In this document: piece after piece, positions 1 through 21,145 of the stretch
How positions within the stretch are numbered: position 1 is the first letter of the stretch
How the letters are laid out: the number at the start of each line of letters is the position of its first letter
Assembly: GCF_000972385.1 (NCBI RefSeq)
Contig: NZ_JXTE01000095.1
Span: 1-23,042 of the forward strand
DNA: 23,042 bases
DNA from: Streptomyces sp. WM6386
Lineage (GTDB): Bacteria; Actinomycetota; Actinomycetes; Streptomycetales; Streptomycetaceae
Reading direction: 5' to 3'
Notes under the pieces: generated by a model
What the model was told of the DNA's origin: nothing
Databases searched by the model: none
What the model saw: the letters and a program-made list of their open reading frames with translations, nothing else
Program-made: the position numbers and the translations under genes

Positions 1-1
1 T

Positions 2-281: not shown

Positions 282-1079
282 TCAGCCCAGGTAACCCATC
301 CGGTGACTGATCTCCTCGGCGCCCTTGAGGAGCACCGGGGAGACCTCGTGCAGCCGCTCCTCGGTGAAGCGGTACGCGGGTCCGGAGGCGCTGAGCGCGG
401 CGATGACCTCGCCGTCGCGGTTGCGGACCGGGGCGGCCATGGCGTGCAGGCCGATCTCCAGCTCCTCGAGGGTGAAGGCGTAGCCGCGCTCCCTCGCGTC
501 GGCCAGGTTCTTCTCGAGCTTCGTCTTCGCGGTGATGGTCCGCGCGGTGACCTTCTTCATGCCGGTCTCGGTCAGCAGCGTCGTGCGCGCCTTGGTCGGC
601 ATGTGGGCCAGCAGGATCTTGCCGCTGGACGTGGCGTGCAGCGGGGTCAACTGGCCGACCCAGTTGTGCGCGGTGATGGCCCCCGGACCGCGCACCTGGT
701 ACAGGTTGATCGCGTAGTGCTCCTGCATGACCGCGATGTTGACGGTCTCGCCGATCTCCTCGGCGAGCCGCTCGCAGATCGGGCGGCCCTGCTGGGTGAT
801 GTCGATACGCCCGGTTACCGCGCCGGCCAGCCGCACGATGCCGAAGCCGAGGCGGTACTTGCCGCGTTCGCCCGCCTGTTCCACCAGACCGCGCGCCTCC
901 AGGGCGCCGAGCAGGCGGAACGCGGTGGACTTGTGCACGTCGATCTCGCCCGCCACCTCACTGACGCCCGCCTCGCCACGCTGAGCAAGGATCTCCAGGA
1001 CGCTGATGGCGCGGTCCACGGACTGCACGCCGCCGGCTTGTGAATTCGACGTTTCTGTGTCAGTGCTGTAGTTGCTCAC
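282..1079 (-). CDS. IclR-family transcriptional regulator, copy 1
   Basis: The 265-residue protein has an N-terminal winged helix-turn-helix (about residues 18-75, with GVSEVAGEIDVHKSTAFRLL) and a C-terminal IclR effector domain (about 90-262, with HATSSGKILLAH and ALSASGPAYRF). The frame stays open upstream to 1160, but I chose GTG at 1079-1077. The resulting protein aligns without gaps with the second IclR at 19156-19953 (about 79 percent identical by hand count), which starts with ATG at the same place. No Shine-Dalgarno sequence precedes this start. A TATAGT hexamer ends 6 nt before it, which suggests a leaderless mRNA. The gene is divergent from the choline dehydrogenase-like gene and convergent with the Rieske fragment. 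Its likely role is control of the betaine/C1 regulon through the 17-bp dyads described here. The effector is unknown; IclR proteins can repress or activate. Confidence 0.93.
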   Translation of the reverse strand: MSNYSTDTETSNSQAGGVQSVDRAISVLEILAQRGEAGVSEVAGEIDVHKSTAFRLLGALEARGLVEQAGERGKYRLGFGIVRLAGAVTGRIDITQQGRPICERLAEEIGETVNIAVMQEHYAINLYQVRGPGAITAHNWVGQLTPLHATSSGKILLAHMPTKARTTLLTETGMKKVTARTITAKTKLEKNLADARERGYAFTLEELEIGLHAMAAPVRNRDGEVIAALSASGPAYRFTEERLHEVSPVLLKGAEEISHRMGYLG

Positions 1080-1106
1080 AGTGAAACTATACGCGTAGTA
1101 AACAAC
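1071..1106 (-). promoter_or_regulatory. Degenerate tandem operator and leaderless-type promoter of iclR copy 1
   Basis: Two degenerate copies of the locus dyad lie in the 19-bp register at 1071-1087 and 1090-1106. The first matches GTTGCG/CGCAAC at 9 of 12 arm positions and covers the GTG start. The second matches at 7 of 12. A minus-strand TATAGT (1091-1086) is followed by 6 nt and then GTG, the spacing expected of a leaderless transcript. A possible -35 TTGCAG lies 19 nt further upstream. Self-regulation is inferred from operator placement. Confidence 0.5.
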
Positions 1107-1144
1107 GCGACTGCAAGTAACGGCACCGAAACAAGGTCCCGGAA

Positions 1145-1180
1145 GTTGCGCCGTTCGCAACCTGGTGCGTATAACGCTAC
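1145..1180 (+). promoter_or_regulatory. Tandem IclR-type operator over the betA promoter
   Basis: GTTGCG-CCGTT-CGCAAC at 1145-1161 is a perfect 6-5-6 inverted repeat. Two bases later comes GGTGCG-TATAA-CGCTAC at 1164-1180, matching the consensus at 10 of 12 arm positions. TTGCGC (1146-1151) and TATAAC (1170-1175), separated by 18 nt, could be the -35 and -10 of the promoter, in which case the operators cover the whole core promoter. The site lies between the divergent iclR and betA starts, so it may act on both. Confidence 0.75.
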
Positions 1181-1228
1181 GGCGCTAGCATGCCTCGCAT
1201 ATCTACGGCGCGAGCGAGACGAGGCACC

Positions 1229-2899
1229 ATGGCTCCCCTGCAATACGACTTCGTCATCGTCGGCGGCGGATCGGCCGGCAGCGCACTGGCGAACAGGCTC
1301 TCCGCGGACCCGGCGAACCAGGTGCTGGTCCTGGAGGCCGGCCGGTCCGACTACCCGTGGGACGTCTTCATCCAGATGCCCGCGGCGCTGACGTATCCCA
1401 TCGGCAGCCGGTTCTACGACTGGAAGTACGAGTCCGAGCCCGAGCCCCACATGGGCGGCCGCCGCGTCTACCACGCCCGCGGCAAGGTGCTGGGCGGCTC
1501 CAGCAGCATCAACGGCATGATCTTCCAGCGCGGCAACCCCCTGGACTACGAACGCTGGGCGGCCGACCCCGGCATGGAGACCTGGGACTACGCGCACTGT
1601 CTGCCGTACTTCCGGCGGATGGAGAACTGTCTCGCCGCCGACCCGGACGACGAGTTCCGCGGCCACGACGGCCCCCTCGTCCTCGAACGCGGCCCCGCCA
1701 CCAACCCCCTCTTCACCGCCTTCCAGAAGGCCACCGAGGAGGCCGGCTACGCCCCCACGGACGACGTCAACGGCTACCGGCAGGAAGGCTTCGCCAAGTT
1801 CGACCGCAACGTCCACCGCGGACGCCGGCTGTCCGCCTCCAAGGCGTACCTCAAGCCGGTGCGCAAGCGCCCCAACCTCACCGTCAAGACCCGCGCCCTG
1901 GTCACCCGCGTCCTCTTCGAGGGCAAGAAGGCCGTCGGCGTCGAGTACCAGCGGGGCAAGGGCGCTCCCCAGCAGGTCCGTGCCAGGGAAGTCATCCTGT
2001 GCGGCGGCGCCATCAACTCCCCGCAGCTGCTCCAGCTCTCCGGCATCGGAAACGCCGAGGAACTGCGCGCCCTCGGCATCGACGTCGTCCACGACCTCCC
2101 GGGCGTCGGCGAGAACATGCAGGACCACCTGGAGGTGTACATCCAGTACGCCTGCAAGCAGCCCGTCTCCATGCAGCCCTACCTGGCGAAGTGGCGCGCC
2201 CCCTTCATCGGCCTGCAGTGGCTCTTCCGCAAGGGACCGGCCGCCACCAACCACTTCGAGGCCGGCGGCTTCGCCCGCAGCAACGAGGACGTGGCCTACC
2301 CCAACCTGATGTTCCACTTCCTGCCGATCGCGGTCCGCTACGACGGCTCCGTGCCCGCGGGCGGCCACGGCTACCAGGTGCACGTCGGGCCCATGTACTC
2401 CGACGCCATCGGCTCGGTGAAGCTCAAGAGCAAGGACCCGCGCGAGCACCCGGCCCTGCGCTTCAACTACCTCTCCACCGAGCAGGACCGCCGCGAGTGG
2501 GTCGAGGCGATCCGGGTGGCCCGCAAGCTGCTCAACCAGCCCGCGCTCGCCCCCTTCAACGACGGGGAGGTCTCGCCCGGACCGTCGGTGGAGAGCGACG
2601 AGGAGATCCTCGCCTGGGTCGCCAAGGACGGCGAGACCGCGCTGCACCCGTCCTGCACCTGCAAGATGGGCACCGACGAGATGTCCGTCGTCGACCCCAC
2701 GAGCATGCGCGTGCACGGCGTGGAGGGCCTGCGGGTCGTCGACGCGTCGGTGATGCCGTACGTCACCAACGGCAACATCTACGCCCCCGTGATGATGGTC
2801 GCCGAGAAGGCCGCCGACCTGATCCTCGGCAAGGAGCCGCTCGCGCCCTCGAAGGCCGCGTTCTACCGCCACCGCGACGCCCAGAAGCAGGCGGGATAG
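1229..2899 (+). CDS. betA: GMC-family FAD oxidoreductase, probable choline dehydrogenase
   Basis: The 556-residue product has the FAD-binding VGGGSAGSA near residues 11-19 and GMC signature 1 around [20 protein letters not shown]. Signature 2 is [16 protein letters not shown]. The C-terminal catalytic pair is likely His473 in HPSCTCKMG and Asn516 in [10 protein letters not shown]. Length and motifs match bacterial choline dehydrogenase (BetA), which oxidises choline to betaine aldehyde, often on to betaine. An in-frame ATG exists at 1190. I prefer ATG 1229, which has a purine-rich GAGACGAGG just upstream and starts the protein seven residues before the FAD-binding strand, as is usual in the family. 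The MTHFR-like gene follows after 3 nt, so the two are probably translationally coupled. A different primary alcohol substrate is possible, but betB and betaine catabolic genes nearby favour choline. Confidence 0.85.
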
Positions 2900-2902
2900 A
2901 CG

Positions 2903-3739
2903 TTGACCGCCACAGGGCTACGGACGCTGCTGGACAGCGTCCGCTACGAGGTGCTGCCCGCCAAGGCGACCGAGGACAAGGTCCTCGCCCATGTGCCGCG
3001 CGACGTCGTCATCACCGTGACGGCGTCGCCGGTCAAGGGCCTGGAACCGACGCTCGCCCTGACCGAGCGGCTCGCGACGCACGGCTACCGCGTGGTCCCG
3101 CACGTGCCCGCGCGGCTGCTGCGCGACGAGGTCCACCTGAAAGAGGTCGCCGACCGGCTGCGTGAGTCAGGGGTCGACGACGTCTTCGTCCCGGCCGGAG
3201 ACTCCGATCCGCCCGCCGGCGCCTACGAGGGCGCGCTGCCGGTGCTGCGCGCACTGAGCGAGCTGGGCAGTCCGTTCGCGCGGGTCGGCGTCACCGGGTA
3301 TCCCGAGAGCCATCCCCTCATCCACGACGACGTCACCATCCAGTCGATGTGGGACAAGCGCGAGCACGCCACGTACGTCGTGAGCAACCTCTGCTTCGAT
3401 CCGCGGGTCCTGGGGGAGTGGATCGCCCGGCTGCGGCGCCGGGACGTCACCCTGCCCGTCCATGTGGGCGTCGCCGGGCCCGTGCAGCGGGCCAAGCTGC
3501 TGGCCATGGCGACGAAGATCGGAGTGGGGGAGTCGACGCGCTTCCTGACGAAACACGCCTCGTGGTTCGTACGGTTCGCGGCACCCGGCGGGTACGCGCC
3601 CGAACGGCTGCTGACCCGGGCCGAAGGGGCCCTCACCGCGCCCTCGGCGGGCGTGGCCGGTCTGCACCTGTTCACCTTCAACCAGATCGCCGAGACGGAG
3701 CGGTGGCGTCGCGAGCTGTGGGACCGGCTGGGCGGCTGA
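2903..3739 (+). CDS. Methylenetetrahydrofolate reductase-like protein
   Basis: This 278-residue soluble protein resembles the MTHFR TIM-barrel family. It has RYEVLPAK near the N-terminus, then TVTASPVKGLEPTL, VVPHVPARLLRDEVH, VPAGDSDPPAGAYE and GVTGYPESHPL, with LHLFTFNQI near the C-terminus. Start TTG at 2903 lies 3 nt after the betA stop; starting at the next in-frame GTG (2951) would remove the conserved RYEVLP. The family reduces 5,10-methylene-THF to 5-methyl-THF using flavin. Methylene-THF is the product of the dimethylglycine and sarcosine oxidases encoded downstream, so this protein could send recovered methyl groups to methionine synthesis. Whether it keeps reductase activity or has a changed role cannot be judged from the sequence. 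Confidence 0.8.
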   Translation: MTATGLRTLLDSVRYEVLPAKATEDKVLAHVPRDVVITVTASPVKGLEPTLALTERLATHGYRVVPHVPARLLRDEVHLKEVADRLRESGVDDVFVPAGDSDPPAGAYEGALPVLRALSELGSPFARVGVTGYPESHPLIHDDVTIQSMWDKREHATYVVSNLCFDPRVLGEWIARLRRRDVTLPVHVGVAGPVQRAKLLAMATKIGVGESTRFLTKHASWFVRFAAPGGYAPERLLTRAEGALTAPSAGVAGLHLFTFNQIAETERWRRELWDRLGG

Positions 3740-3753
3740 ACGACGCGTATACA

Positions 3754-3790
3754 AAGGGGGGCGGGGCCGCAATCCGGCCCCGCCCCCCTT
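3754..3790. terminator. Bidirectional hairpin between the MTHFR-like gene and purU1
   Basis: A perfect inverted repeat has 16-bp arms (3754-3769 and 3775-3790) and a 5-nt loop. The stem is GC-rich with AA/TT at the outer ends. It lies 14 bp after the plus-strand stop and 9 bp from the minus-strand purU stop, as expected for a shared terminator of convergent genes. Confidence 0.85.
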
Positions 3791-3799
3791 GTCGGCTGC

Positions 3800-4672
3800 T
3801 CAGCGGAAGACCACCGTGCGGTTGTCGTCCACCATCACCCGGCTCTCGCTGTGCCACTTCACCGCGTGTGCGAGGACCTGTGCCTCCACGTCGCGTCCGA
3901 CCGTGACCAGGTCGCCGGGGTCGAGGGAGTGGTCCACCCGGATCACGTCCTGCTCGATGATCTGACCCTCGTCCAGGTCCGAGGTCACATAGTGCGCCGT
4001 CGCGCCGACCAGCTTCACTCCGCGCTGGTAGGCCTGGTCGTAGGGCCGGGCCCCCTTGAAACTGGGGAGGAAGGAGTGGTGGATGTTGATGGCGCGGCCC
4101 TCGAGCTGCTTGCACAGGTCGTCGGAGAGGATCTGCATGTACCGGGCCAGCACGACCAGGTCGATGTCCAGGTCGCGCACCAGCTCCAGCAGGCGCGCCT
4201 CGGCCTGGTCCTTGGTGTCCCGGGTGACCGGGACGTGGTGGAAGGGGATGCCGTAGGTCTCCGCGAGCCCCTCGAAGTCCCGGTGATTGGATACGATCGC
4301 GGGGATCTCGATGTTGAGGGCGCCGGTGCGCTTGCGGAACAGCAGGTCGTTGAGGCAGTGGCCGAACTTGGACACCATGATCAGCGTCCGGGTCGGTGTC
4401 GACGCGTCGCTCAGCGCCCAGGTGATCCCGTAGGCCTGGGCGACCGGACCGAACCGGTAACGCAGATGTTCCAGATCTGCGTTCGGATCGGAAACGTCGA
4501 AGTGGACCCTCATGAAGAACCGGCCCTGAAGTCGGTTGTCGAACTGCTGGCTTTCCAGGATGTTTCCGGAGTTCCTGACGAGAAAGCCGCTCACGGCATG
4601 GACCAGTCCGGCGCTGTCGGGACACGAGAGGGTCAGGACGTACTCACGGCCTGGTTGTGGACGAGGGGACAT
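3800..4672 (-). CDS. purU: Formyltetrahydrofolate deformylase, copy 1
   Basis: This 290-residue protein has an N-terminal ACT domain (about 10-85) and a C-terminal formyltransferase-fold hydrolase domain. The catalytic triad positions appear as Asn196 and His198 in INIHHSFLPSF and Asp234 in DLDEGQII. PurU hydrolyses 10-formyl-THF to formate and THF. I chose ATG 4672 because GGAGG lies 6 nt upstream (4683-4679) and because the paralogue at 20074-20946 starts identically with MSPRPQPGRE; the frame is open to 4705. The two copies align without gaps at about 81 percent identity by hand count. In this locus it would finish the route methylene-THF to formyl-THF to formate, regenerating THF during rapid demethylation. 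The promoter carries the tandem dyads. Confidence 0.95.
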   Translation of the reverse strand: MSPRPQPGREYVLTLSCPDSAGLVHAVSGFLVRNSGNILESQQFDNRLQGRFFMRVHFDVSDPNADLEHLRYRFGPVAQAYGITWALSDASTPTRTLIMVSKFGHCLNDLLFRKRTGALNIEIPAIVSNHRDFEGLAETYGIPFHHVPVTRDTKDQAEARLLELVRDLDIDLVVLARYMQILSDDLCKQLEGRAINIHHSFLPSFKGARPYDQAYQRGVKLVGATAHYVTSDLDEGQIIEQDVIRVDHSLDPGDLVTVGRDVEAQVLAHAVKWHSESRVMVDDNRTVVFR

Positions 4673-4686
4673 ATGCGGCCTCCGTT

Positions 4687-4751
4687 GATGCGTATTGCAC
4701 AACAAGGTGAGCGATACGCAACATGGTCGGCTCGGCGCGGCCCGCGGTCAA
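4687..4751 (-). promoter_or_regulatory. Promoter and tandem operator of purU1
   Basis: Reading the minus strand, TTGACC (4751-4746) is followed by 17 nt and GACCAT (4728-4723), a plausible -35/-10 pair. Two dyads start immediately after it: 4722-4706 (plus-strand form GGTGAG-CGATA-CGCAAC, 10 of 12) and 4703-4687 (GATGCG-TATTG-CACAAC, 10 of 12), 19 bp apart. This puts the operators over and just after the start of transcription. TTGCGT-N18-CAATAC inside the operators is an alternative promoter reading. Confidence 0.7.
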
Positions 4752-4800
4752 GGGTGGTCGGGCAAGTGGTCTCAAGGTGAGAACGGCATCGGTGAACCCC

Positions 4801-4865
4801 TTGACGTCTGTCCGGACATTCGCCACTGTGTTCCACCACAAGCAATTGGGTGCATGATGCGCAAC
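4801..4865 (+). promoter_or_regulatory. Promoter and tandem operator of the betB-proVWX operon
   Basis: TTGACG (4801-4806), 17 nt and CACTGT (4824-4829) form a plausible core promoter. Dyads follow directly at 4830-4846 (GTTCCA-CCACA-AGCAAT, 8 of 12) and 4849-4865 (GGTGCA-TGATG-CGCAAC, 10 of 12) in the same 19-bp register as at the other promoters. The betB start lies 26 nt after the second dyad. Confidence 0.65.
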
Positions 4866-4890
4866 GAATTTCTGTTGAAAGGCTCGGCGC

Positions 4891-7465
<2,575 letters not shown>

Positions 7466-7466
<1 letters not shown>

Positions 7467-9466
7467 TGACCGTCGTCATGGAGAAACCGGAGAAGACCGG
7501 GGTCGCGGAGGAGCCGACGCCCGTCAAACCCGTGCGCAGGGTCAGCCGGTCCATGGTGATCGCCGCGATCCTCGTCGTCTGGCTGGTGCTCTTCGCCGTG
7601 CTGCGCGGCAAGCAGACCCTCACCCTGGCAGCGGCCGACCTGACCGATCTGCACCGGTGGTTCAACGACGTCAACGACTCGATCGGCGCGAACCGCAACT
7701 CCAACCCGCTCTTCCTGTACTTCTTCAACGAGATCCGCCTGGTCATCGACAACGTGGTGACCTTCGTACAGGAGCTGATCTCCCAGCCGACGGGCGACCG
7801 TCCCGTCCCGCAGATCGGCTGGCTCGGCGTCGTCGGCATCGTGGGCTTCGGCTCCTGGGCCGTCGGCAACTGGCGGGTCGCGCTCCTCGCGGTGGCCGGC
7901 TTCACCTTCCTGGGCCTGCAGGGCCTGTGGCAGGAGAGCATGGACACCCTGGCGCTCACCGTCTCCGCGGTCTTCGTGGCGCTGCTCTTCGCGATCCCGC
8001 TGGGCGTGTGGGCAGGGCTGTCCGACCGGTTCAACCGGATCGTGACGCCCTTCCTGGACCTCATGCAGACGATGCCGACCTTCGTCTACCTGGCCCCGCT
8101 GACCCTGTTCTTCCAGATCGGCCCGGCCTCGGCCAATCTCGCCACGCTGATCTACGCGGCGCCGCCGACGATCCGCATCACCGCGCACGCCATCCGCTCC
8201 GTGCCGCACACCACGGTCGAGGCGGCCGACTCGCTCGGCGCCACCCGGCGGCAGTCCCTGACGAAGGTGCTGCTGCCGATGTCCAAGCGGACCGTGGTGA
8301 TGGGCGTGAACCAGACCATCATGGCCGCCCTGGCCATGGTGACCATCGCCGCCCTGATCGACGCGCCCGGCCTGGGCCAGACCGTCCTGCAGGCACTCCA
8401 GTCGCTGGATGTCGGCACCGCCTTCAACGCGGGCCTGGCCATCGTCGTCCTGGCGATCGTGCTGGACCGCGTCACCACCGCGGCGAGCACCCGCGCGGAG
8501 GCGGCACGGCGCTCGAAGAACCGCTTCGTGGCCTGGCGGCGCCCGCTGCTGGGCGCGGGCGCAGCGGTCACGGCGGTCCTGGTCTATCTCTCGCACACCT
8601 ATCTGTGGGCGGCGGAGTTCCCCGGCGAGGGAGGCACGGGCAGTGCCATCCGCAGCGGGGCGGACAACGTGACCACCTGGGCGCAGGACAACCTGTCGGG
8701 TCTGACCAACGCGTTCCGGGACGCCATCACCAACGGCCTGCTCAACCCGTTCCAGTCGCTGCTCACGGACTCCCCGTGGTGGCTCGTCGGAGCCGCCCTG
8801 ATCGGGATCGGCGTCGTCCTGGGCGGCGTGCGCGCCGGCGTCACCACGGCGGTGTGTGTGGGGCTGCTCGTCGGCACCGGTGTGTGGTCGGACAGCATGA
8901 CGACCCTGGCGTCGACCGCCGTCGCCACGGTGCTCGTGATGCTCTTCGGCATCTGCTTCGGCGTCTGGATGGGGCGCAGCGCCATGGCGGACCGGCTGTT
9001 GCGGCCCACGCTGGACGCGGCACAGGTCATGCCGCCGTTCGTCTATCTCGTCCCGTTCCTCGCGTTGTTCGGCGCGACCCGCTTCACCGCGATCGTCGCG
9101 GCCGTCGTCTACGCGGCGCCCGTCGCGATGAAGATCATCGCGGACGGCGTGCGGAACGTGCCCGCCACCACCGTGGAGGCGGCCACTTCCGCCGGGTGCA
9201 ACACCTGGCAGATCATCACCAAGGTCCAGCTGCCGATGGCACGCAGCGCTCTGACCCTCGCGACCAACCAGGGTCTGATCTACGTGCTGTCGATGGTCGT
9301 GGTGGGCGGCCTGGTGGGCGCGGGAGCGCTCGGCTACGACGTCGTGGCCGGATTCTCGCAGGGACAGCTTTACGGGAAGGGGCTCGCCGCGGGGCTCGCC
9401 ATCGTCCTTCTCGGTGTCATGTTCGACCGGATCACTCAGGCAGCGGCTCGCCGCACCTCCGCATAA
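7466..9466 (+). CDS. proW: Glycine betaine/choline ABC importer, fused double permease
   Basis: At 666 residues this is about twice the usual ProW length. Two binding-protein-dependent permease domains lie in tandem. The first has its coupling (EAA) loop near residue 250, TVEAADSLGATRRQ, followed by KVLLPM. The second has it near residue 568, TVEAATSAGCNTWQ, followed by KVQLPM. Each domain also has the preceding MQTMPTFVYLAPL or AQVMPPFVYLVPF motif. Both halves are rich in hydrophobic membrane segments. The fusion supplies both membrane halves of the transporter in one chain, where most ProW-type systems use a homodimer. The ATG overlaps the proV stop by one base, and the lipoprotein gene follows after 13 nt. 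Confidence 0.9.
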
Positions 9467-9479
9467 GGAGCACCACACC

Positions 9480-10439: not shown

Positions 10440-10473
10440 CCCCGGCGGACCAGAAGTCGAAGACCGGTCGAAC

Positions 10474-10558: not shown

Positions 10559-13103
<2,545 letters not shown>

Positions 13104-13139
13104 CCTGCCGCGTCGGCTTCGACAGAAGGAGCACAGCCG

Positions 13140-14000
13140 GTGACTGCACAGCTGCTCGACGGCAAGGCCACCGCCGCCGACATCCGTCGCGAACTCGCCG
13201 ACCGCGTCGCCAAGCTGACCGCCGGCGGCGGGCGCCCGCCGGGCCTCGGCACCGTCCTGGTCGGCGACGACCCGGGCAGCCACGCCTACGTCGCCGGCAA
13301 GCACCGCGACTGCGCGCAGGTGGGCATCGCCTCCTTCCGCCGCGAACTGCCCGCCGACGCCACCCAGGGTCAGGTCGAGGACGTCATCGACGAACTCAAC
13401 GCCGACCCGGCCTGCACCGGCTACATCGTCCAGCTCCCGCTCCCCGGGCACCTGGACGCCAACGCCGTACTGGAACGCATGGACCCGGCCAAGGACGCCG
13501 ACGGTCTGCACCCCGTCAACCTCGGCCGACTCGTCCTGGGCGTGCAGGCCCCGCTGCCCTGCACCCCGCGCGGCATCGTCGAACTCCTGCGCCGCTACGA
13601 CGTACCGCTGGCCGGAGCCCGGGTGTGCGTGGTCGGACGGGGCATCACGGTCGGCCGCCCGATCGGCCTGCTGCTCACCCGCCGCTCCGAGAACGCCACC
13701 GTGACCCTGTGCCACACCGGAACCAAGGGCCTGGCCTGGCACGTACGCGAGGCGGACATCGTCATCGCGGCGGCCGGCTCACCCGGGCTGATCACCAAGG
13801 ACATGCTGCGCCCCGGCGCCGCGGTCCTGGACGTCGGCATCACCCGCACCGACAACGGCCTGGTCGGCGACATCCACCCGGACGCGGCAGAGATCGCCGG
13901 ATGGGTCGCACCGATGCCCGGCGGGGTGGGCCCCATGACCAGGGCGATGCTGCTGGCCAACGTCGTCGAGGCCGCCGAGAGGAACGCGAGCACCGTATGA
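13140..14000 (+). CDS. folD: Methylenetetrahydrofolate dehydrogenase/cyclohydrolase
   Basis: The 286-residue protein is a full-length FolD. Catalytic Lys54 is in YVAGKHRDC, with QLPLPGHLD and [14 protein letters not shown] in the active-site cleft. [11 protein letters not shown] (from 166) is the NADP-binding loop and [11 protein letters not shown] (from 260) the C-terminal signature. It converts methylene-THF to methenyl- and 10-formyl-THF. GTG 13140 has AGAAGGAG about 8 nt upstream and is 36 nt after the dmg stop. Its place between two methylene-THF-producing oxidases suggests a dedicated catabolic copy that passes one-carbon units to PurU; a second, housekeeping folD elsewhere in the genome is expected but not visible here. 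Confidence 0.95.
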
Positions 14001-14035
14001 ACCTGTCCCTTCCCGAGGACGGAGCCGTCCGATGA
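13997..14035 (+). CDS. Possible 12-codon coupling ORF between folD and soxB
   Basis: ATG 13997 overlaps the folD stop as ATGA, runs 12 codons ([12 protein letters not shown]) and ends in a TGA that itself overlaps the soxB ATG as ATGA. This geometry would let ribosomes pass from folD through the mini-ORF into soxB. The only upstream purines are the end of folD. The arrangement may be chance, and soxB has its own GAGGACGGAG upstream. Confidence 0.25.
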
Positions 14036-15264
14036 GCCCCCGCACCCCCGGCGCCGAACTCCCGGAGCACCCGGACTTCCTCTGGCGCAATCCCGAGCCC
14101 AAGCGCTCCTACGACGTGATCGTCGTCGGCGGTGGCGGCCACGGCCTCGCCACCGCCCACTACCTGGCGAAGAACCACGGCATCAGCAACGTCGCCGTGC
14201 TGGAGAAGGGCTGGCTGGCGGGCGGCAACATGGCCCGCAACACCACGATCATCCGCTCCAACTACCTGTGGGACGAGAGCGCCGGCATCTACGAGCACGC
14301 GCTCAAGCTGTGGGAGGGCCTGGCGGAGGAGCTGGACTACCCGATCCTCTTCTCCCAGCGTGGTGTGCTGAACCTCGCCCACAGTCTCCAGGACGTCCGC
14401 GACAGCGTGCGCCGAGTGGAGGCGAACCGCCTGAACGGCGTGGACGCGGAATGGCTCGACGCTGACGGCGTCAAGGAAGTCTGCCCGATCGTCAACATCT
14501 CCCCGGACGTGCGCTATCCGGTCCTGGGCGCCACCTACCAGCCCCGCGCCGGCATCGCCAAGCACGACCACGTGGCCTGGGGCCTCGCCCGCTCGGCGGA
14601 CGCGGCAGGCATCGACATCATCCAGAACTGCGAGGTCACCGGCCTGGACGTGGTCGGCGGCCGGGTCGTCGGAGTCCAGACGAACCTGGGCCCGATCGCC
14701 GCGGGCAAGGTCGCCCTCTGCTCGGCGGGCCACACCTCGGTCCTGGCCGCGATGGCCGGCATCGAACTCCCGGTCCAGAGCCACCCGTTGCAGGCACTGG
14801 TGTCGGAGCTGCTGGAACCCGTCCACCCCACGGTGGTCATGTCCAACGCGGTCCACGTCTACGTCAGCCAGGCCCACAAGGGCGAGCTGGTGATGGGCGC
14901 GGGCATCGACGCGTACAACTCCTACACACAGCGCGGCGCGTTCCACATCATCGAGGAACAGATGGCGGCCGCCCTGGAACTCTTCCCGGTCTTCGCCCGC
15001 GCCCACGTCCTGCGCACCTGGGGCGGCATCGTCGACGTCAGCCCCGACGCCTCGCCCATCATCGGCCTCAGCCCGGTCGACAACCTCTACCTCAACTGCG
15101 GCTGGGGCACGGGGGGTTTCAAGGCCACCCCGGGCGTCGGCTGGGTCTACGCCCACACGATCGCCCACGACACACCGCATCCGTTGAACGCCCCCTTCTC
15201 GCTCGACCGTTTCACCACCGGCGCGCTCGTCGACGAGCACGGCGCGGCCGCGGTGGCCCACTAG
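14032..15264 (+). CDS. soxB: Sarcosine oxidase, beta subunit
   Basis: This 410-residue flavoprotein has the FAD-binding motif [18 protein letters not shown] near residues 29-46. [20 protein letters not shown] and RGVLNLAH follow, and [12 protein letters not shown] lies near the C-terminus. His178 and His180 in IAKHDHVAW lie in the region where the beta subunit of heterotetrameric sarcosine oxidase holds its covalent FMN. The complex converts sarcosine, O2 and THF to glycine, H2O2 and methylene-THF; beta holds the sarcosine site. Start ATG 14032 gives the usual N-terminus ([18 protein letters not shown]) and has a purine-rich site upstream. The gap to the delta-alpha gene is 26 nt. Confidence 0.95.
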
Positions 15265-15290
15265 GACCACTGGATACTGGGAGCCGATCC

Positions 15291-18200
15291 ATGCTGCTCA
15301 TCCCCTGCCCGTGGTGCGGGCCCCGCGACGAGGCCGAGTTCCACTACGGCGGCCAGGCCCACGTCCCGTACCCCGAGACCCCGTCGACCCTCACCGACGA
15401 GGAGTGGGCCCGCTACCTGTTCTTCCGCGACAACACCAAGGGCCCCTTCGCCGAACGCTGGAGCCATGCGGCGGGCTGCCGCAAGTGGTTCAACGCGGTA
15501 CGGGACACATCGACGAACGAGATCCTGACGGTGTACAGGTCGGGCGAGGAACGCCCGGAGAGGTTGGAGTCGCGACCGGCGACTCGTCAGCCCGGTCCAG
15601 CTGTCCCAGCCCGTCCGGCGATTGAGGACGAGGCCCCTTCAGGGCCGAACGGGGTCGAAGGGGCCGAGCCCCTTCAGGATGGGACGGGTAGGGGCGGCGG
15701 GGGCGAGAACCATCCGTTCCGCCACCCCACCCGCGGCCGAATCCACCGAGACACCCCCCTCACCTTCACTTTCGACGGCACCGAGTACCGGGGCTACCGC
15801 GGCGACACCCTCGCCTCCGCCCTCCTCGCCAACGGCGTCATCCAGGCCGGCACCAGCATCAAGCTCGGCCGCCCCCGAGGCATCTTCTCGGCCGGCGTCG
15901 AAGAACCCAACGCGGTCATCCAGATCGAGGCCCCGTTCCCCGAGCCGATGCTCCCCGCCACCACCGTCGAGCTCTACGACGGTCTGGTCGCGACCAGCCT
16001 CCCCGGCCAGGGCCGCCTCGCCACGGACCCGGACCCCGCCCGCTACGACGCCGTGCACGCCCACTGCGACCTCCTGGTCGTCGGCGCCGGCCCGGCCGGC
16101 CTCGCGGCAGCCGCGGCGGCGGCGAAGAGCGGCGCCCGCGTCATCCTCGCCGACGACCAGCCGGAGCCGGGCGGCAGCCTCCTGGGCACCGGCGAGCACC
16201 TCGACTGGGTGGCAGAGGTCGCCGAACTCCTCGACGCCGAACCCGAGATCCGCGTCCTGCGCCGTACCACCGTCTTCGGCTACTACGACGACAACCACCT
16301 CCTGGCCGTGGAACGCCGCACCAACCACCTCGGCGCGGCTGCCCCGGACAACGTCTCCCGCGAACGCGTCTGGCGCATCCGCGCCCGCCGCGTCGTCCTC
16401 GCCACCGGCGCCCACGAACGCTCACTGGCCTTCGCGGACAACGACCGCCCCGGAGTGATGCTGGCCTCCTCGGCCCGCACCCACCTCAACCGCCACGGCG
16501 CCCTCCCCGGCCGCCACGCGGTCGTCTTCACCACCAACGACAGCGCCTACGCGGCCGCGTTGGACCTGAAGCCAGCGGGCGTGGACATCACCGCCGTCGT
16601 CGACACCCGCCCCGAACCGGGGGAGTGGGCACAGCGTGCCCGCCAGGCCGGCATCGAGGTGCTGACCGGCCACGCGGTCACCGGCACGGAGGGCGCCCCC
16701 CGCCTGACCGCCGTGACCGTTGCCCCGTACGGAGACTCCGTGGGACAGCGCGAGTTCGCCGCCGACCTGCTGCTGGTCTCCGGCGGCTGGAACCCGGTCG
16801 CGCACCTGTACAGCCAGGCAGGCGGAAAACTCCGCTACGACGAGACGCTCGGCTCCTTCGTGCCCGAGGCCTGCCGACAGGCGGTCGAGGTCGTGGGCAG
16901 CGCGAACGGCGTCCTGGCCAGAGCCGACGTCCTCGCCCACGGCAGCGCCGCCGGTGCCCGCGCGATCGAGTCCGAGGGCTACACCCCGCAGGCACCCCGC
17001 CTCCCGGCCGTGGCCGCGCAGCCGCGACCGACGCCCCCGATGCATGTGTACGTCGTCCCCGGCACTTCCGGCCCCCACCGCTTCGTGGACCTCCAACGCG
17101 ACGTCACCGTCGACGACCTGGCCCGGGCGGCCGGCGCCGGAATGCGCTCGGTCGAGCACACCAAGCGCTACACCACCGCCGGCACCGCCAACGACCAGGG
17201 CAAGACCTCCGGCGTCCTGGCCAGCGGTGTCGTCTCCGAACTCCTCGGCGTGGACATCTCGGCACTCGGCACGACCACGTTCCGGCCGCCGTACACACCG
17301 GTCTCCTTCGCGGCGCTCGCCGGCCGCGACCGTGGTGTCCTGAGCGACCCGGTCCGCACGACCGCCATCCATGAGTGGCACGTCGACCACGGCGCCCTGT
17401 TCGAGAACGTCGGCCAGTGGAAGCGCCCTTGGTACTACCCGCACAACGGCGAGGACATGGAGACCGCCGTGCTGCGCGAGTGCGCCGCCACCCGCGAGAG
17501 CGTCGGCTTCATGGACGCCTCCACCCTCGGCAAGATCGACGTCCAGGGCCCGGACGCCGGAGTCTTCCTCGACCTGCTCTACACCAACATGATGAGCACC
17601 CTGAAGGTCGGCATGATCCGCTACGGCGTCATGTGCCGCCCGGACGGCATGGTCTTCGACGACGGCACCGTCATCCGCCTCGCCCAGGGCCGCTTCCTGG
17701 TCACCACCACGACCGGCAACGCCGCCGCCGTACTGGACTGGATGGAGGAGTGGCTGCAGACCGAGTGGCCCGAACTGAAGGTCCACTGCACGTCCGTGAC
17801 CGAACAATGGGCCACCGTCGCCCTGGTCGGCCCCCGCTCCCGTGACGTCCTCGGCTCGCTCGCACCCGAACTCGCCGTCGACAACGACGACTTCCCGTTC
17901 ATGGCCTGGCGCGAGACGACCGTCGCGGGCATCGACGCCAGGGTCTGCCGGATCAGCTTCTCCGGCGAACTGGCCTACGAGATCAACGTGTCCCCGTGGC
18001 AGGCGCGCGCCCTGTGGGAGGCCCTGTACGAGGCCGGCGCGCCGTACGGCATCACCCCGTACGGCACCGAGACCATGCACGTCCTGCGCGCCGAGAAGGG
18101 CTACCCCATCATCGGCCAGGACACCGACGGCACGGTCACCCCCCAGGACCTCGGCATGAGCTGGGCCGTGTCGAAGAAGAAGCCCGACTTCATCGGCAAG

Positions 18201-18527
18201 CGCTCCTTCGCCCGCGCCGACACCGTCCGCGCCGACCGCAAGCACCTGGTCGGCCTCCTCCCCGAGGACCCCGGCACCTTCCTCCCCGAAGGCACCCATC
18301 TGATCGCCGACAGCGTCCTTCCGGCGCCGCCCGTCCCGATGCTCGGCCACGTCACCTCCAGCTACCGCAGCGCGGCGCTGGGCCGGACCTTCGCGCTCGC
18401 CCTGATCAAGGGCGGCCGCGAGCGCATCGGTGAGCGGCTCTACGCCCCCGTGGGCGACCGGCTGGTCCCGGTGACCGTCGCAAGCCCCGTCCTCTACGAC
18501 CCCGAGGGAGCCCGCCGCGATGGCTGA
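15291..18527 (+). CDS. soxDA: Sarcosine oxidase delta-alpha fusion protein
   Basis: One uninterrupted 1078-residue frame joins two subunits that are normally separate. Residues 1-90 are SoxD, with zinc ligands Cys6, Cys9, His59 and Cys63 at the positions I recall for the family. Residues about 95-140 are a low-complexity linker rich in Pro, Gly and Glu, encoded by a palindromic repeat. SoxA starts near residue 140 (NHPFRHPTRGRI). It has a Fer2-like N-terminal fold, the dinucleotide motif GAGPAGLAAAAAAA (from 265) and a GcvT-like folate domain (about 690-1078, with RAEKGYPIIGQDTDG). Alpha binds NAD and THF. I see no convincing internal start: TTG 15564 and GTG 15531 lie before the linker and none lies at the SoxA boundary. 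It overlaps soxG by 8 nt. A sequencing frameshift at the junction is the main alternative. Confidence 0.9.
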   Translation: MLLIPCPWCGPRDEAEFHYGGQAHVPYPETPSTLTDEEWARYLFFRDNTKGPFAERWSHAAGCRKWFNAVRDTSTNEILTVYRSGEERPERLESRPATRQPGPAVPARPAIEDEAPSGPNGVEGAEPLQDGTGRGGGGENHPFRHPTRGRIHRDTPLTFTFDGTEYRGYRGDTLASALLANGVIQAGTSIKLGRPRGIFSAGVEEPNAVIQIEAPFPEPMLPATTVELYDGLVATSLPGQGRLATDPDPARYDAVHAHCDLLVVGAGPAGLAAAAAAAKSGARVILADDQPEPGGSLLGTGEHLDWVAEVAELLDAEPEIRVLRRTTVFGYYDDNHLLAVERRTNHLGAAAPDNVSRERVWRIRARRVVLATGAHERSLAFADNDRPGVMLASSARTHLNRHGALPGRHAVVFTTNDSAYAAALDLKPAGVDITAVVDTRPEPGEWAQRARQAGIEVLTGHAVTGTEGAPRLTAVTVAPYGDSVGQREFAADLLLVSGGWNPVAHLYSQAGGKLRYDETLGSFVPEACRQAVEVVGSANGVLARADVLAHGSAAGARAIESEGYTPQAPRLPAVAAQPRPTPPMHVYVVPGTSGPHRFVDLQRDVTVDDLARAAGAGMRSVEHTKRYTTAGTANDQGKTSGVLASGVVSELLGVDISALGTTTFRPPYTPVSFAALAGRDRGVLSDPVRTTAIHEWHVDHGALFENVGQWKRPWYYPHNGEDMETAVLRECAATRESVGFMDASTLGKIDVQGPDAGVFLDLLYTNMMSTLKVGMIRYGVMCRPDGMVFDDGTVIRLAQGRFLVTTTTGNAAAVLDWMEEWLQTEWPELKVHCTSVTEQWATVALVGPRSRDVLGSLAPELAVDNDDFPFMAWRETTVAGIDARVCRISFSGELAYEINVSPWQARALWEALYEAGAPYGITPYGTETMHVLRAEKGYPIIGQDTDGTVTPQDLGMSWAVSKKKPDFIGKRSFARADTVRADRKHLVGLLPEDPGTFLPEGTHLIADSVLPAPPVPMLGHVTSSYRSAALGRTFALALIKGGRERIGERLYAPVGDRLVPVTVASPVLYDPEGARRDG
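15610..15688. repeat. Palindromic intergenic-type repeat inside the delta-alpha fusion
   Basis: Outer arms CCCGTCC (15610-15616) and GGACGGG (15682-15688) enclose an inner perfect 9-bp inverted repeat (15632-15640 with 15657-15665). The decamer CCCCTTCAGG occurs twice (15634-15643 and 15669-15678). The sequence, including CCGGCGATTGAGGACGAG and the G-rich tail to about 15705, resembles a repeat I recall as very common between Streptomyces genes. Here it is translated in frame as the linker (about residues 107-138). Confidence 0.7.
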
Positions 18528-19122
18528 CACCGCACTGACCGCCCCGCCCCGCAGCCCCCTGTCACAGGTCGCGGGCCGACTCGCCGCCGCCACCCGCACC
18601 TCCGGGGGCGCGATCCGGCTGGCCGAACTTCCCTTCCTGGCCCAGCTCAATGTGCGCCTCGACGCCAAGGGGACGGCGGCGGAAGCCGTCGGGCTCGCGC
18701 TGGACCTGCAACTGCCCCTGCAGCCGAACACCGTCGTCCGGACGGGGGAGTTGACCGTGCTGTGGCTCGGCCCGGACGAATGGCTGCTGGTCGGCCCGCC
18801 CGGAAGCGAGCGGGAGCTGGAGAGCCGGATCCGCACGGCTGCGGGAGACGAACCCGTCTCCGTCACCGACGTCTCCGCACAGCGGACCACGCTGCTCGTG
18901 GCGGGCCCCCGGGCCCACGATCTGCTGGCGCACGGCTGTTCACTGGACCTGCATCCGCGGAGCTTCGGCTCCGGACGCTGCGCCCAGACCACCCTGGGCC
19001 GTACGCAGGTCATCGTGGTCGCCCGGGCCGATTCCCGGGCCGGTTTCTGGGTCCTGGTGCGTTCGTCCTTCGCCGGCTACCTGACCGACTGGCTGCTGGA
19101 CGCGGCGACGGAGTACGTCTGA
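18520..19122 (+). CDS. soxG: Sarcosine oxidase, gamma subunit
   Basis: The 200-residue protein matches SoxG in length and position (last of the sox genes). Features include ELPFLAQLNVRLDAKG, LWLGPDEWLLVGPPG, VSVTDVSAQRTTLLVAGPRAHDLL and GCSLDLHPRSF, with a GcvT-like fold and no cofactor motif. In the heterotetramer gamma packs against alpha and has a structural role. ATG 18520 overlaps the end of the fusion gene by 8 nt, which indicates coupling, with GAGGGAG about 10 nt upstream. It ends the dmg-folD-sox operon and is convergent with the second iclR. Confidence 0.92.
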   Translation: MADTALTAPPRSPLSQVAGRLAAATRTSGGAIRLAELPFLAQLNVRLDAKGTAAEAVGLALDLQLPLQPNTVVRTGELTVLWLGPDEWLLVGPPGSERELESRIRTAAGDEPVSVTDVSAQRTTLLVAGPRAHDLLAHGCSLDLHPRSFGSGRCAQTTLGRTQVIVVARADSRAGFWVLVRSSFAGYLTDWLLDAATEYV

Positions 19123-19133
19123 GCGAAGGCCGG

Positions 19134-19155
19134 CCCTCTGCCCGCCGGGCGAGGG
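19134..19155. terminator. Short hairpin between soxG and iclR2
   Basis: CCCTC (19134-19138) and GCCC (19140-19143) pair with GGGC (19147-19150) and GAGGG (19151-19155), with one bulged T and a 3-nt loop. It fills most of the 33-bp gap between the convergent stops, so it may end both transcripts. No T-run is present. Confidence 0.5.
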
Positions 19156-19953
19156 TCAGCCCAGGCAGCCCATCCGGTGGCTGATCTCCTGCGCGCCCTG
19201 GAGGAGCGCGGGCACGAGCTCGTGGATGCGCTCCTCGGTGAAGCGGTAGGCGGGGCCGGAGGCGCTGAGGGCGGCGACGACCTCGCCGTCACGGCCCCGG
19301 ATCGGGGCCGCCACGGCGTGCAGTCCGATCTCGAGTTCCTCCAGGGTCACCGCGTAGCCGCGCTCGCGGGCCTTGGCGAGATCCTTCTCCAGTGTCGCCT
19401 CGGTGGTCAGGGTGCGCGGCGTCAGCTTCCGCAGCCCGGACTCCGCGAGCACGTCGGCGCGCTCCTTCGCCGGCAGGTGGGCCAGCAGGATCTTGCCGCT
19501 CGACGTGGCGTGCACCGGGGTGAGCTGTCCGACCCAGTTGTGGGTGCCGACGGCGCCCGGACCGCGTACCTGGTACAGGTTGACCGCGTAATGCTCCTGC
19601 AGGACCGCGATGTTGACGGTCTCGCCGACCTCTTCGCTGAGCCGCTCGCACACCTGCCGGCCCTGCTGCGTGATGTCGAGACGGCCCGTGACGGCGCCGG
19701 CCAGCCGCACGATGCCGAAACCGAGCCGGTACTTGCCCCGCTCGGCCGTCTGCTCGACCAGACCGCGCGCCTCCAGCGCCCCGAGCAGGCGGAAGGCGGT
19801 CGACTTGTGGACGTCGATCTCCGCGGCGACCTCGCTGACGCCCGCCTCGCCGCGCTGGGCGAGGATCTCCAGGACACTGACGGCACGGTCGACGGATTGC
19901 ACCCCGCTGACCGCGGGCCCGGCTGTCTCGCCGTCTGCCGTGTGGTTGCTCAT
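19156..19953 (-). CDS. IclR-family transcriptional regulator, copy 2
   Basis: This 265-residue paralogue of the regulator at 282-1079 is about 79 percent identical with no gaps. Most differences lie in the first 20 residues and around residues 160-190 (the effector domain, PAKERADVLAESG). The helix-turn-helix (GVSEVAAEIDVHKSTAFRLL) is nearly identical between copies, so both probably read the same operator. ATG 19953-19951 has no Shine-Dalgarno. TATAGT (19965-19960) ends 6 nt before it, again suggesting a leaderless mRNA. It lies 120 nt downstream of purU2 on the same strand, with no clear terminator between, so read-through from purU2 is also possible. Confidence 0.94.
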   Translation of the reverse strand: MSNHTADGETAGPAVSGVQSVDRAVSVLEILAQRGEAGVSEVAAEIDVHKSTAFRLLGALEARGLVEQTAERGKYRLGFGIVRLAGAVTGRLDITQQGRQVCERLSEEVGETVNIAVLQEHYAVNLYQVRGPGAVGTHNWVGQLTPVHATSSGKILLAHLPAKERADVLAESGLRKLTPRTLTTEATLEKDLAKARERGYAVTLEELEIGLHAVAAPIRGRDGEVVAALSASGPAYRFTEERIHELVPALLQGAQEISHRMGCLG

Positions 19954-19965
19954 GGCGCAACTATA
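19945..19965 (-). promoter_or_regulatory. Operator over the start codon of iclR2, with leaderless-type -10
   Basis: GTTGCT-CATGG-CGCAAC (19945-19961) matches the dyad consensus at 11 of 12 arm positions and contains the start codon. It overlaps the candidate -10 TATAGT (19965-19960, minus strand). A protein bound here would block both polymerase and the start codon. No second dyad is visible in the 19-bp register on either side. The rest of the gap to purU2 (19966-20073) shows nothing I can support. Confidence 0.7.
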
Positions 19966-20073
19966 ATCATGAGTTCCCTCTGCCGAACCGGTGTCGTGGA
20001 ATTCGGCTGTGCGCCCGATGTCGGCCGGTCAGCGGGCTGTTGAGCTCTGCGGACCCGGTGCTGTCCGTCCTCG

Positions 20074-20946
20074 TCAGCGCAGGACGACCGTGCAGTGGCC
20101 GTTGATCAGCACACGGTTCTCGCTGTGCCATTTCACCGCGCGGGAGAGCGCCTGGGCCTCGACATCGCGGCCGATGGCGACCAGCTCGTCGGGGGTGCGC
20201 GAGTGGTCCACGCGGACGACGTCCTGCTCGATGATCGGGCCCTCGTCGAGGTCGGGCGTGACGTAGTGCGCCGTCGCCCCGACGAGCTTCACACCACGCT
20301 GGTGCGCCTGGACGTACGGGCGGGCCCCCTTGAAGCTCGGCAGGAACGAGTGGTGGATGTTGATGGCCCGGCCGTCGAGCTGCTTGCACAGGTCGTCGGA
20401 GAGGATCTGCATATAGCGGGCGAGGACCACGAGGTCGACGTCCAGTTCGTCGACGAGATCCAGCAGTCGTGCCTCGGCCTCCGCCTTGGTCTCCTTCGTC
20501 ACCGGGATGTGGTGGAAGGGGATGCCGTAGGTGTGCGCCAGCGGCTCGAACTCGCGGTGGTTGGAGACGATCGCCGGGATCTCGATGTTGAGCGCGCCCG
20601 TGGACCTGCGGAAGAGCAGGTCGTTGAGGCAGTGGCCGAACTTCGACACCATGATCAGGGTTCGCGTCGGTGTGGAGGCGTCCTGCAGCCGCCAGCTGAT
20701 CCCGTACGCCTGACCGACCGGACCGAACCCCGTGCGCAGCTGCTCCAACGAGACCGCGGAATCCGAGACGTCGAAGTGAACCCGCATGAAGAAGCGGTTC
20801 TGCAGCCGGTCGTCGAACTGCTGGCTCTCCAGGATGTTGCCGGAGTGACTCACGAGGAACGTGGTCACGGCGTGGACGAGTCCGGCCTGGTCGGGGCAGG
20901 ACAGGGTGAGGACGAACTCGCGGCCGGGCTGCGGTCGAGGGGACAT
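20074..20946 (-). CDS. purU: Formyltetrahydrofolate deformylase, copy 2
   Basis: The second PurU has the same 290-residue length as copy 1, with an N-terminal ACT domain and a C-terminal hydrolase domain. It keeps Asn196, His198 and Asp234 of the active site (INIHHSFLPSF, DLDEGPII). It differs from copy 1 mainly at residues 62-90, 150-170 and the last 45. ATG 20946 has GGAGG 5 nt upstream; the frame is open to 21030 but the paralogue supports the internal start. It is divergent from the formaldehyde dehydrogenase gene, and its promoter has the same operator layout as purU1. Two deformylases suit heavy methylene-THF flux from two folate-linked oxidases. Confidence 0.95.
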   Translation of the reverse strand: MSPRPQPGREFVLTLSCPDQAGLVHAVTTFLVSHSGNILESQQFDDRLQNRFFMRVHFDVSDSAVSLEQLRTGFGPVGQAYGISWRLQDASTPTRTLIMVSKFGHCLNDLLFRRSTGALNIEIPAIVSNHREFEPLAHTYGIPFHHIPVTKETKAEAEARLLDLVDELDVDLVVLARYMQILSDDLCKQLDGRAINIHHSFLPSFKGARPYVQAHQRGVKLVGATAHYVTPDLDEGPIIEQDVVRVDHSRTPDELVAIGRDVEAQALSRAVKWHSENRVLINGHCTVVLR

Positions 20947-20964
20947 GCCATCCTCCGTTGTGTG

Positions 20965-21030
20965 GCTGCGTATTACGCAACATGTAGAGCTATACGCAAC
21001 ATGCTCCAACGTGGGTGCCGTGCCGGTCAA
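20965..21030 (-). promoter_or_regulatory. Promoter and tandem operator of purU2
   Basis: On the minus strand, TTGACC (21030-21025), 18 nt and GAGCAT (21006-21001) are followed at once by dyads 21000-20984 (plus-strand form GTAGAG-CTATA-CGCAAC, 10 of 12) and 20981-20965 (GCTGCG-TATTA-CGCAAC, 11 of 12), 19 bp apart. TTGCGT-N18-TAATAC inside the operators is a second possible promoter. Confidence 0.75.
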
Positions 21031-21069
21031 GGGGTGGCGTGCGGAGAGAAGGTCCGATCCGCCGGCCTC

Positions 21070-21145
21070 TTGACAGTGGGTGTCGGCGACGGGGACAGTT
21101 TGGGCGTTCGTTTCTTATAGCGAATGACGTTGCGGTATGTGCAAC
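21070..21145 (+). promoter_or_regulatory. Promoter and tandem operator of the mscR-gbcA unit
   Basis: TTGACA (21070-21075), 18 nt and GACAGT (21094-21099) could be the promoter. Dyads lie at 21110-21126 (GTTTCT-TATAG-CGAATG, 7 of 12) and 21129-21145 (GTTGCG-GTATG-TGCAAC, 11 of 12) in the 19-bp register. Here the first dyad starts 11 bp after the -10 rather than directly next to it. Confidence 0.6.

Follow-up and report, generated by a model that had tools for sequence, protein, structure and literature searches.

We analysed a 23,042-nucleotide stretch of the genome of Streptomyces sp. WM6386 (contig NZ_JXTE01000095.1, positions 1 to 23,042; hereafter the window), which carries a choline/betaine catabolic cluster. 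Its genes are betA, a homologue of methylenetetrahydrofolate reductase (MTHFR; mthfr), purU1, betB-proVWX, dmg-folD-soxB-soxDA-soxG, purU2, mscR1-gbcA2 and two genes for IclR-family regulators, iclR1 and iclR2 (Table 1). The subject of this analysis is a putative operator element of 36 bp in the promoters of the cluster, which consists of two 17-bp dyads (GTTGCG-N5-CGCAAC) with centres 19 bp apart. An earlier reading of the same DNA (the original prediction) had proposed this element as a locus-wide operator, and re-scoring of all its listed positions showed the site coordinates to be correct.

Single dyads are not enriched. With up to three mismatches, the window holds 20 of them where 19.0 are expected, and genome-wide, with up to two mismatches, they are rarer than a reversed control (388 vs 609); only the pair was therefore used in later searches. 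Although the single dyad occurs at chance frequency, its pairing at 19 bp is far above that in shuffled sequence, which bears out the earlier claim that chance would not give a fixed register. Counting matches to GTTGCG-N5-CGCAAC (out of 12 per dyad and 24 per pair), four window pairs at offset 19 reach at least 20; none of the other offsets between 12 and 40 gives a pair that good, nor does offset 19 in 300 dinucleotide shuffles of the window. Four pairs at offset 19 have a sum of at least 19; each other offset between 12 and 40 has none or one, and the shuffles average 0.003 such pairs at offset 19.

Apart from the listed sites, a sequence-model scan found nothing above 3.5 bits in the rest of the window, in line with the original prediction, which saw no further sites in intergenic sequence. 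A site had also been expected before every named unit. This holds for betA, purU1, betB, dmg and purU2, but the mscR-gbcA unit has one site, at mscR, and iclR2 has only a single dyad. The weak pairs at 1071, 4830 and 21110 are unconvincing alone and rest on recurrence in orthologues; the 1071/1090 pair recurs in 9/11 close iclR1 promoters (not in loci L050 and L051), while the single dyad of iclR2 recurs with small changes in six relatives, two of which (L049 and L051) have a weak second dyad. Taken over all classes of promoter, the operator is best conserved at its outer ends: with equal weight over eight classes, the half-site ends score G 1.00, T 1.00, T 0.96 and A 0.87, A 0.75, C 1.00, and position 4 of the outer half-sites is G at 0.83, with C at 0.91 in the mirror half.

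Table 1. Operators, putative promoter boxes and genes of the window; matches are given per dyad, and bits and E values are those of the sequence model described in the text.
Feature	Position	Strand	Remarks
Tandem operator, iclR1, weak; covers -10 and start codon	1071..1106		matches 9/7; outer half-sites kept, inner overlap -10
Tandem operator, betA(-mthfr) promoter, includes perfect dyad	1145..1180		matches 12/10; 23.6 bits
Tandem operator, purU1 promoter	4687..4722		matches 10/10; 25.2 bits
Tandem operator, betB-proVWX promoter, first dyad weak	4830..4865		matches 8/10; 15.1 bits
Tandem operator, dmg-folD-sox promoter	10590..10625		matches 9/11; 16.8 bits
Single dyad over -10/+1 and start codon of iclR2	19945..19961		match 11
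Tandem operator, purU2 promoter, genome's best	20965..21000		matches 11/10; 26.2 bits, E 8.5e-5
Tandem operator, mscR1(-gbcA2) promoter, first dyad weak	21110..21145		matches 7/11; 14.8 bits, E 0.4
TTGACC, putative -35 of purU1	4746..4751	-	23 nt before operator
TTGACG, putative -35 of betB	4801..4806	+	23 nt before operator
TTGACA, putative -35 of dmg	10559..10564	+	25 nt before operator
TTGACC, putative -35 of purU2	21025..21030	-	24 nt before operator
TTGACA, putative -35 of mscR1	21070..21075	+	34 nt before operator, longer than rest
TATAGT, putative -10 of iclR1	1086..1091	-	-12 to -7 of GTG; transcript predicted to be leaderless
TATAGT, putative -10 of iclR2	19960..19965	-	-12 to -7 of ATG
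3' end of Rieske oxygenase gene, probably gbcA1	1..280	+	from gene order in relatives
iclR1, IclR-family regulator, putative reader	282..1079	-	Pfam HTH_IclR and IclR_C above cut-off
betA, choline dehydrogenase (start may be 1229)	1190..2899	+	TIGR01810 above cut-off
mthfr, distant MTHFR homologue	2903..3739	+	below family cut-offs
purU1, formyl-tetrahydrofolate deformylase	3800..4672	-	TIGR00655 above cut-off
betB, betaine-aldehyde dehydrogenase homologue	4891..6360	+	best family TIGR01804, 588 of 669 bits
proV-proW-proX, glycine-betaine-type ABC transporter	6381..10439	+	
dmg, dimethylglycine-oxidase-type protein	10665..13103	+	DAO and GCV_T domains, context
folD, soxB, fused soxD-soxA, soxG	13140..19122	+	
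iclR2, iclR1 paralogue, 79% identical	19156..19953	-	HTH and C-terminal domains above Pfam cut-offs
purU2, formyl-tetrahydrofolate deformylase	20077..20946	-	TIGR00655 above cut-off
mscR1, S-(hydroxymethyl)mycothiol dehydrogenase	21201..22283	+	TIGR03451 above cut-off
gbcA2, Rieske oxygenase, GbcA homologue, cut by contig end	22365..23042	+	189 of 670 bits

The original prediction had proposed a position matrix and a genome scan. Our model, R1, is sequence-only and built from 25 aligned pairs (five from the window and 20 from eight related genomes), each entered in both orientations; in the 9.2-Mb genome, 150 of 1224 first-look candidates were scored with it. The seven top places in the genome are six pairs of the window and one pair outside it, at position 137239 of contig C212 (21.0 bits, E 0.004), and the next-best place scores 12.8 bits (E 1.8). 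The paired register is thus not equally frequent in unrelated or coding DNA of this genome. The pair at 21110 was recovered genome-wide at E 0.4, though absent from the training set.

The outside pair is centred 26 nt before a Rieske ferredoxin gene, which is followed by a ferredoxin reductase gene and the 5' part of gbcA1. C212 stops inside gbcA1, the window starts inside the 3' end of such a gene, and the same genes are adjacent in the related genome G049. From this gene order and the broken gbcA1 ends, C212 and the window probably adjoin, and the locus would then extend left of the window onto C212, which also has weaker sites before mscR2 and gbcA1. The region C212:135367-139613 (L097) holds mscR2, an MBL-fold hydrolase, the Rieske ferredoxin and reductase genes, and further operators.

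We compared orthologous upstream regions, as the original prediction had also suggested, in 80 named Streptomyces loci (L121, L140 and L151 come from training-site genomes, and L156 is from G033, also in the earlier relative set). The position-weight cut-offs used (10, 12, 15 and 16) were picked after the scores were seen, and promoter counts leave out genes starting fewer than 150 bases from a locus end or matched only beyond query residue 15. At a score of at least 15, the loci hold 533 sites, none of which lies inside the 929,569 bases of annotated cluster coding sequence. Most unit-leading genes keep the pair: fdx (77/77), mscR2 (60/60), purU1 (43/43), betA (64/65), dmg (20/21), betB (59/63) and iclR1 (77/80; the pair is centred 9 nt before the start in 70, and the other seven are the shared betA site), but gbcA1 has a site in merely 31/74. 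Operon-internal genes have almost none (proV 0/61, proW 0/55, proX 0/60, fdr 0/75, mbl 0/55, mthfr 1/49), and folD and iclR2 each contribute one promoter to this count, neither with a site. Fifty of the 533 sites could not be assigned to a cluster gene, many of them near a locus end, where the counting rule drops the gene; of 20 inspected, two (L117:19229 and L119:20036) have no cluster gene nearby.

The register is also marked in these relatives. Offset 19 gives 230 pairs with at least 20 matches across the 80 loci, the other offsets between 10 and 45 giving 0-6 each; with at least 18 matches the count is 362, against at most 105 elsewhere (offset 26). At the latter threshold, 17 close stretches chosen by IclR alone hold 51 pairs at offset 19 and no more than 15 at any other; 15 stretches of the group with 55-60% identical IclR, chosen in the same way, hold 23 pairs at offset 19 and no more than three elsewhere; and four stretches with 43-47% IclR have no pair at offset 19.

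Some loci carry the operator before further genes. It precedes a BCCT-family carrier in L113:15640-17525 and L189:16977-18785, and in L188:13774-15862 a FolP-type pterin-binding enzyme beside a chorismate-binding enzyme; the FolP-type enzyme, if under operator control, would link folate synthesis to the regulon.

The sites also track the IclR gene across genomes. Taking the gene as present at a search E of 1e-65 or better, and a site as an R1 match at E 0.1 or less, sites occur in 43/65 genomes with the gene and in 0/53 without it (Fisher p 4e-16; the IclR-free controls comprise 34 and 19 further genomes). Without the eight genomes that supplied training sites, the figures are 35/57 and 0/53 (p 6e-14), and within the same genus alone, again with training genomes removed, 17/30 and 0/47 (p 2e-9). 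Among genomes with IclR, a site was found in 15/26 of the genus set (stricter filters) and in 28/39 of the class sample (10/12 within the genus, 18/27 outside). At E 0.5, 37/39 class-sample genomes with IclR match, against 5/39 IclR-free genomes (best E 0.147), a frequency like that of chance.

Outside the genus, in 20 genomes whose regions were mostly fetched via the model match, sites lie before cluster homologues in 17, the genes so led being dmg, betB, purU/iclR, mscR2, fdx, gbcA1, BCCT and mthfr. The site in G158 has just a 31% betA-like gene beside it, and no sites at cluster genes were seen in the inspected regions of G179 and G308. A stand-alone MTHFR homologue has its own site in 4/4 regions (L211, L214, L227 and L236; fetched via matches, so the count is biased), while the homologue inside the Streptomyces betA operon has none of its own. 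Further matches lie beside no known cluster gene (L209:6708, L216, L217, L221:17836, L225, L226:128, L230 and three in L235), and one, in L210, falls inside a BCCT alignment. Seven short loci from other families, selected solely by their IclR, hold three pairs with at least 18 matches at offset 19, three at offset 18 and 0-2 at each other offset; the register there is neither strict nor far above background. The register, said in the original prediction never to change, is thus not absolute, as three pairs near iclR outside the genus have one of 18 bp (L198:2275, L200:1448 and L206:2254).

The position of the operator relative to putative promoters is also conserved. On the gene strand, TTGAC lies 22-28 nt before the operator at 59/59 betB, 43/43 purU1, 60/60 mscR2, 20/20 dmg, 74/77 fdx and 28/31 gbcA1 sites, so that transcription starting about 30-35 nt past the box would begin within the operator. 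The betA operator contains TTGCGC and TATAAC, 18 nt apart. At both iclR genes the dyad extends to about +8 of the start codon, and the badly kept inner half-sites of iclR1 are those overlapping the -10 box. TTGAC boxes before most sites, together with a site over the iclR -10/+1, point to repression, and the positions would fit a repressor that also represses its own gene.

We consider it highly probable that this element is a tandem operator for the IclR-family regulators encoded in the cluster, which would repress the pathway until a metabolite releases them. The element, its register, its position and its distribution are features of the DNA itself; from them we infer IclR binding, the promoter boxes, repression and the inducer. 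We predict that two IclR dimers sit next to each other, spaced by about two turns of the helix, and form a dimer of dimers. In most units the operator would begin just after a TTGAC-type promoter and span about -6 to +30; at betA it would lie over both putative promoter boxes, and at the iclR genes over the -10, +1 and start codon. Bound IclR would block transcription at these places and so repress both the target units and its own gene. A metabolite from the breakdown of choline or betaine would then release IclR from the operators and turn on together uptake (ProVWX, and BCCT carriers in relatives), oxidation (BetA, BetB, GbcA with its ferredoxin/reductase, and the dimethylglycine and sarcosine oxidases), folate one-carbon handling (FolD, PurU and the MTHFR-like protein) and formaldehyde disposal (MscR and MBL).

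Several points weigh against this reading. R1 fixes the 19-bp register by construction, and orthologous promoters are not independent observations. The 53 controls include just six genomes from outside the genus, and new searches covered just 19 of the 255 class-sample genomes that lack IclR. An R1 match at E 0.1 is lacking in 22/65 IclR genomes: 14 with a 55-60% IclR, four with 50-54%, two with 47% (G002 and G021), and also G076 and G219, which have a 68-70% IclR and R1 E values of 0.25-0.28, above the cut-off. A local scan of the nine unmatched genus genomes of the 55-60% group shows a weaker pair near iclR in eight. In the listed loci of that group, betB (7/7) and dmg (9/9) have no site between -170 and +10. 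The low share of gbcA1 promoters with a site fits the proposal poorly, TTGAC precedes 0/64 betA sites, the TTGACA of mscR1 is 34 nt from the operator, and position 4 differs from the published consensus discussed below.

The same IclR proteins and operator could instead form an activator or dual regulator, activating the catabolic units with an effector and repressing only the regulator itself. BhcR of Paracoccus denitrificans, the best NCBIfam model for the IclR proteins of the window, has been proposed as such a dual regulator (PMC11323563), and fdx in several genomes has an extra pair near -130, where activation is conceivable. However, purU1, purU2, betB, dmg, fdx and mscR2 have the operator downstream of their putative -35/-10, where a bound protein would block rather than recruit polymerase, and we regard this alternative as unlikely, if not negligibly so.

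Repression by IclR also raises the matter of which IclR protein reads the sites. Both paralogues pass the Pfam cut-offs for the IclR helix-turn-helix (HTH) and C-terminal domains; the nearest named match of the window IclR is from S. canus (97%). Their HTH stretch is identical, as the original prediction of near-identical DNA-binding helices had it. In the close and 55-60% groups, 34/35 IclR proteins have this stretch as HKSTAFR; the sole exception, L065 (HRSTAFR), is also the locus of its group in which no site was found. That the paralogues share out the work, or that mixed IclR1/IclR2 tetramers on one operator sense two metabolites, would suit two genes that are 79% identical and separately flanked (betA/purU1 vs purU2/mscR1), as well as the unequal half-sites of several operators. 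Yet the shared HTH stretch speaks against it, and G022, G033 and G040 (one contig), with a single IclR of the group among the matches listed, keep sites at the same kinds of promoter, making a division of labour quite unlikely. Two paralogues are thus not needed. The original prediction had named both as readers; the co-occurrence and the iclR-promoter sites suggest IclR, but not the need for a pair.

A regulator of another family, encoded elsewhere, might read the sites, with IclR a mere neighbour, since dyads of such size serve other families too. We find this very improbable: the sites track the IclR gene (43/65 vs 0/53 genomes), lie on iclR promoters, and have the size and spacing described for IclR proteins. 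On the same grounds, a locus-wide operator read by IclR proteins is supported as the best explanation.

We also considered the dyads as RNA hairpins acting on the transcript from its 5' leader, given that the predicted start point at several genes puts most of the element in the leader. This is hardly credible: compensatory changes occur in 2 of 600 cells vs 9.8 in shuffles (the alignment holds each site twice, once per strand), standard pairing is 71.5% vs 74.5% in shuffles, the window has no Rfam match, and the element coincides with the putative promoter at betA and iclR. We rejected the RNA-hairpin reading, which neither compensatory base-pair changes nor an Rfam match supports. Chance, or shared promoter descent without function, fits the chance frequency of the single dyad but is close to impossible given the offset-19 statistics, the scan of the genome itself and the return of the element at unrelated promoters within a single genome.

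The architecture of an IclR tandem operator is known. Suvorova and Gelfand (2021, PMC8222616) describe pairs of IclR palindromes in tandem, with a spacing of 18-22 nt, for 94 orthologous groups; the centres are mostly 19-21 nt apart, the pairs are taken as two dimers on one face, and sites are most frequent between -3 and +1 relative to the gene start. The spacing of 19 nt here, and of 18 nt in the three other-family pairs, falls within this range. The operator resembles their GTT-11-AAC type (consensus GTTYCRYW3RYGRAAC) in being a 17-bp palindrome with GTT...AAC ends, in tandem and at gene starts, although position 4 is a pyrimidine in the published consensus and mostly G here. Judged by these features, the operator is a variant of the GTT-11-AAC type. 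In L066, near a 47%-group IclR, a perfect dyad GTTTCGCATAGCGAAAC at position 10228 has the published pyrimidine form, and the helix of that IclR reads HKSSVFR in place of HKSTAFR; this joint change of helix and dyad is a possible specificity switch.

Other IclR-family systems differ. E. coli IclR, a tetrameric repressor according to PMC11323563, and AllR share the family and domain order of the window proteins and are close solved effector domains; of the five residues given there for the glyoxylate/pyruvate oxygens, however, the window proteins keep two Ser. With pocket residues placed by hand on an alignment with the residue table of that paper, Ser 239 and 241 are kept, Gly160, Ala161 and Asp212 become Ser, Ser and Thr, and patch residues 143, 146, 154 and 220 are Ala, Ala (Thr in iclR2), Thr and Leu. 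Trp 140, near this pocket in sequence, is invariant among 11 aligned IclR proteins. Glyoxylate was dropped as an effector, the pocket residues being only partly kept. The differences make an effector other than that of E. coli IclR/AllR likely, and a quaternary or dimethyl ammonium ligand would be our guess.

BhcR, whose gene is likewise divergent from its target unit, is the best model for both paralogues, but they score 200.7 and 196.8 bits against a cut-off of 350 for its equivalog (NF045644); BhcR controls the hydroxyaspartate cycle, with one palindrome proposed upstream of the -35 (PMC11323563). NdgR of Streptomyces coelicolor, also a Streptomyces IclR-family protein with a palindromic motif, has a 15-bp motif of another sequence and controls amino-acid biosynthesis and thiol-stress genes (PMC4340878). 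Arthrobacter dimethylglycine/sarcosine clusters contain the same catabolic enzymes, including purU and soxBDAG, but IclR is not mentioned in the available text of PMC3534580, and the glycine betaine pathway is listed there as incomplete.

As for a betaine regulon, PMC6676996 notes an IclR gene upstream of the proP carrier gene in two marine Streptomyces, and the available parts of PMC6904314, PMC6676996, PMC12772271 and PMC3141670 do not describe the present regulon. Within the accessible portions of the open-licence literature, no paper that we found describes a regulator of choline/betaine catabolism for Streptomyces or any other Actinobacteria. Betaine is absent from the main text of PMC8222616, whose regulons are in its supplement, where the present group may be among its 181. 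The earlier claim of an undescribed kind of operator thus fails for the tandem architecture, while the large betaine/one-carbon regulon is apparently undescribed so far.

The gene names in the window are of unequal standing. The betA, purU1, purU2 and mscR1 products pass curated cut-offs, while those of betB, dmg and the gbcA genes miss them, so these names rest on best match, domains and context. No curated equivalog model reaches its cut-off for dmg. The whole G049 gbcA1 gene scores 219 bits against a cut-off of 670 for the GbcA equivalog (NF058607), and is named by homology and context. The short MTHFR homologue at 2903-3739 reaches 40 of 294 bits, far under curated cut-offs. The delta and alpha subunits of sarcosine oxidase are fused in one protein of 1078 residues (15291-18527; SoxD domain at residues 3-83, then the SoxA domains), and the ProW-like permease (7466-9466; 666 residues) has two permease domains per chain.

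On balance, we lean towards an ancient IclR/tandem-operator regulon for methyl-group catabolism across several actinobacterial families, in which betaine/choline uptake and oxidation would be tied to folate one-carbon disposal, formaldehyde detoxification and, in some species, folP and BCCT carriers. The operator would move with operon breaks, as the stand-alone mthfr with its own site suggests, and would mark the components of the first demethylation step, itself poorly assigned: ferredoxin, reductase and oxygenase. If this is true, a single motif defines the regulon and may be used to find missing pathway genes; it points to BCCT carriers, folP and, for betaine demethylation, a unit of ferredoxin, reductase and Rieske oxygenase.

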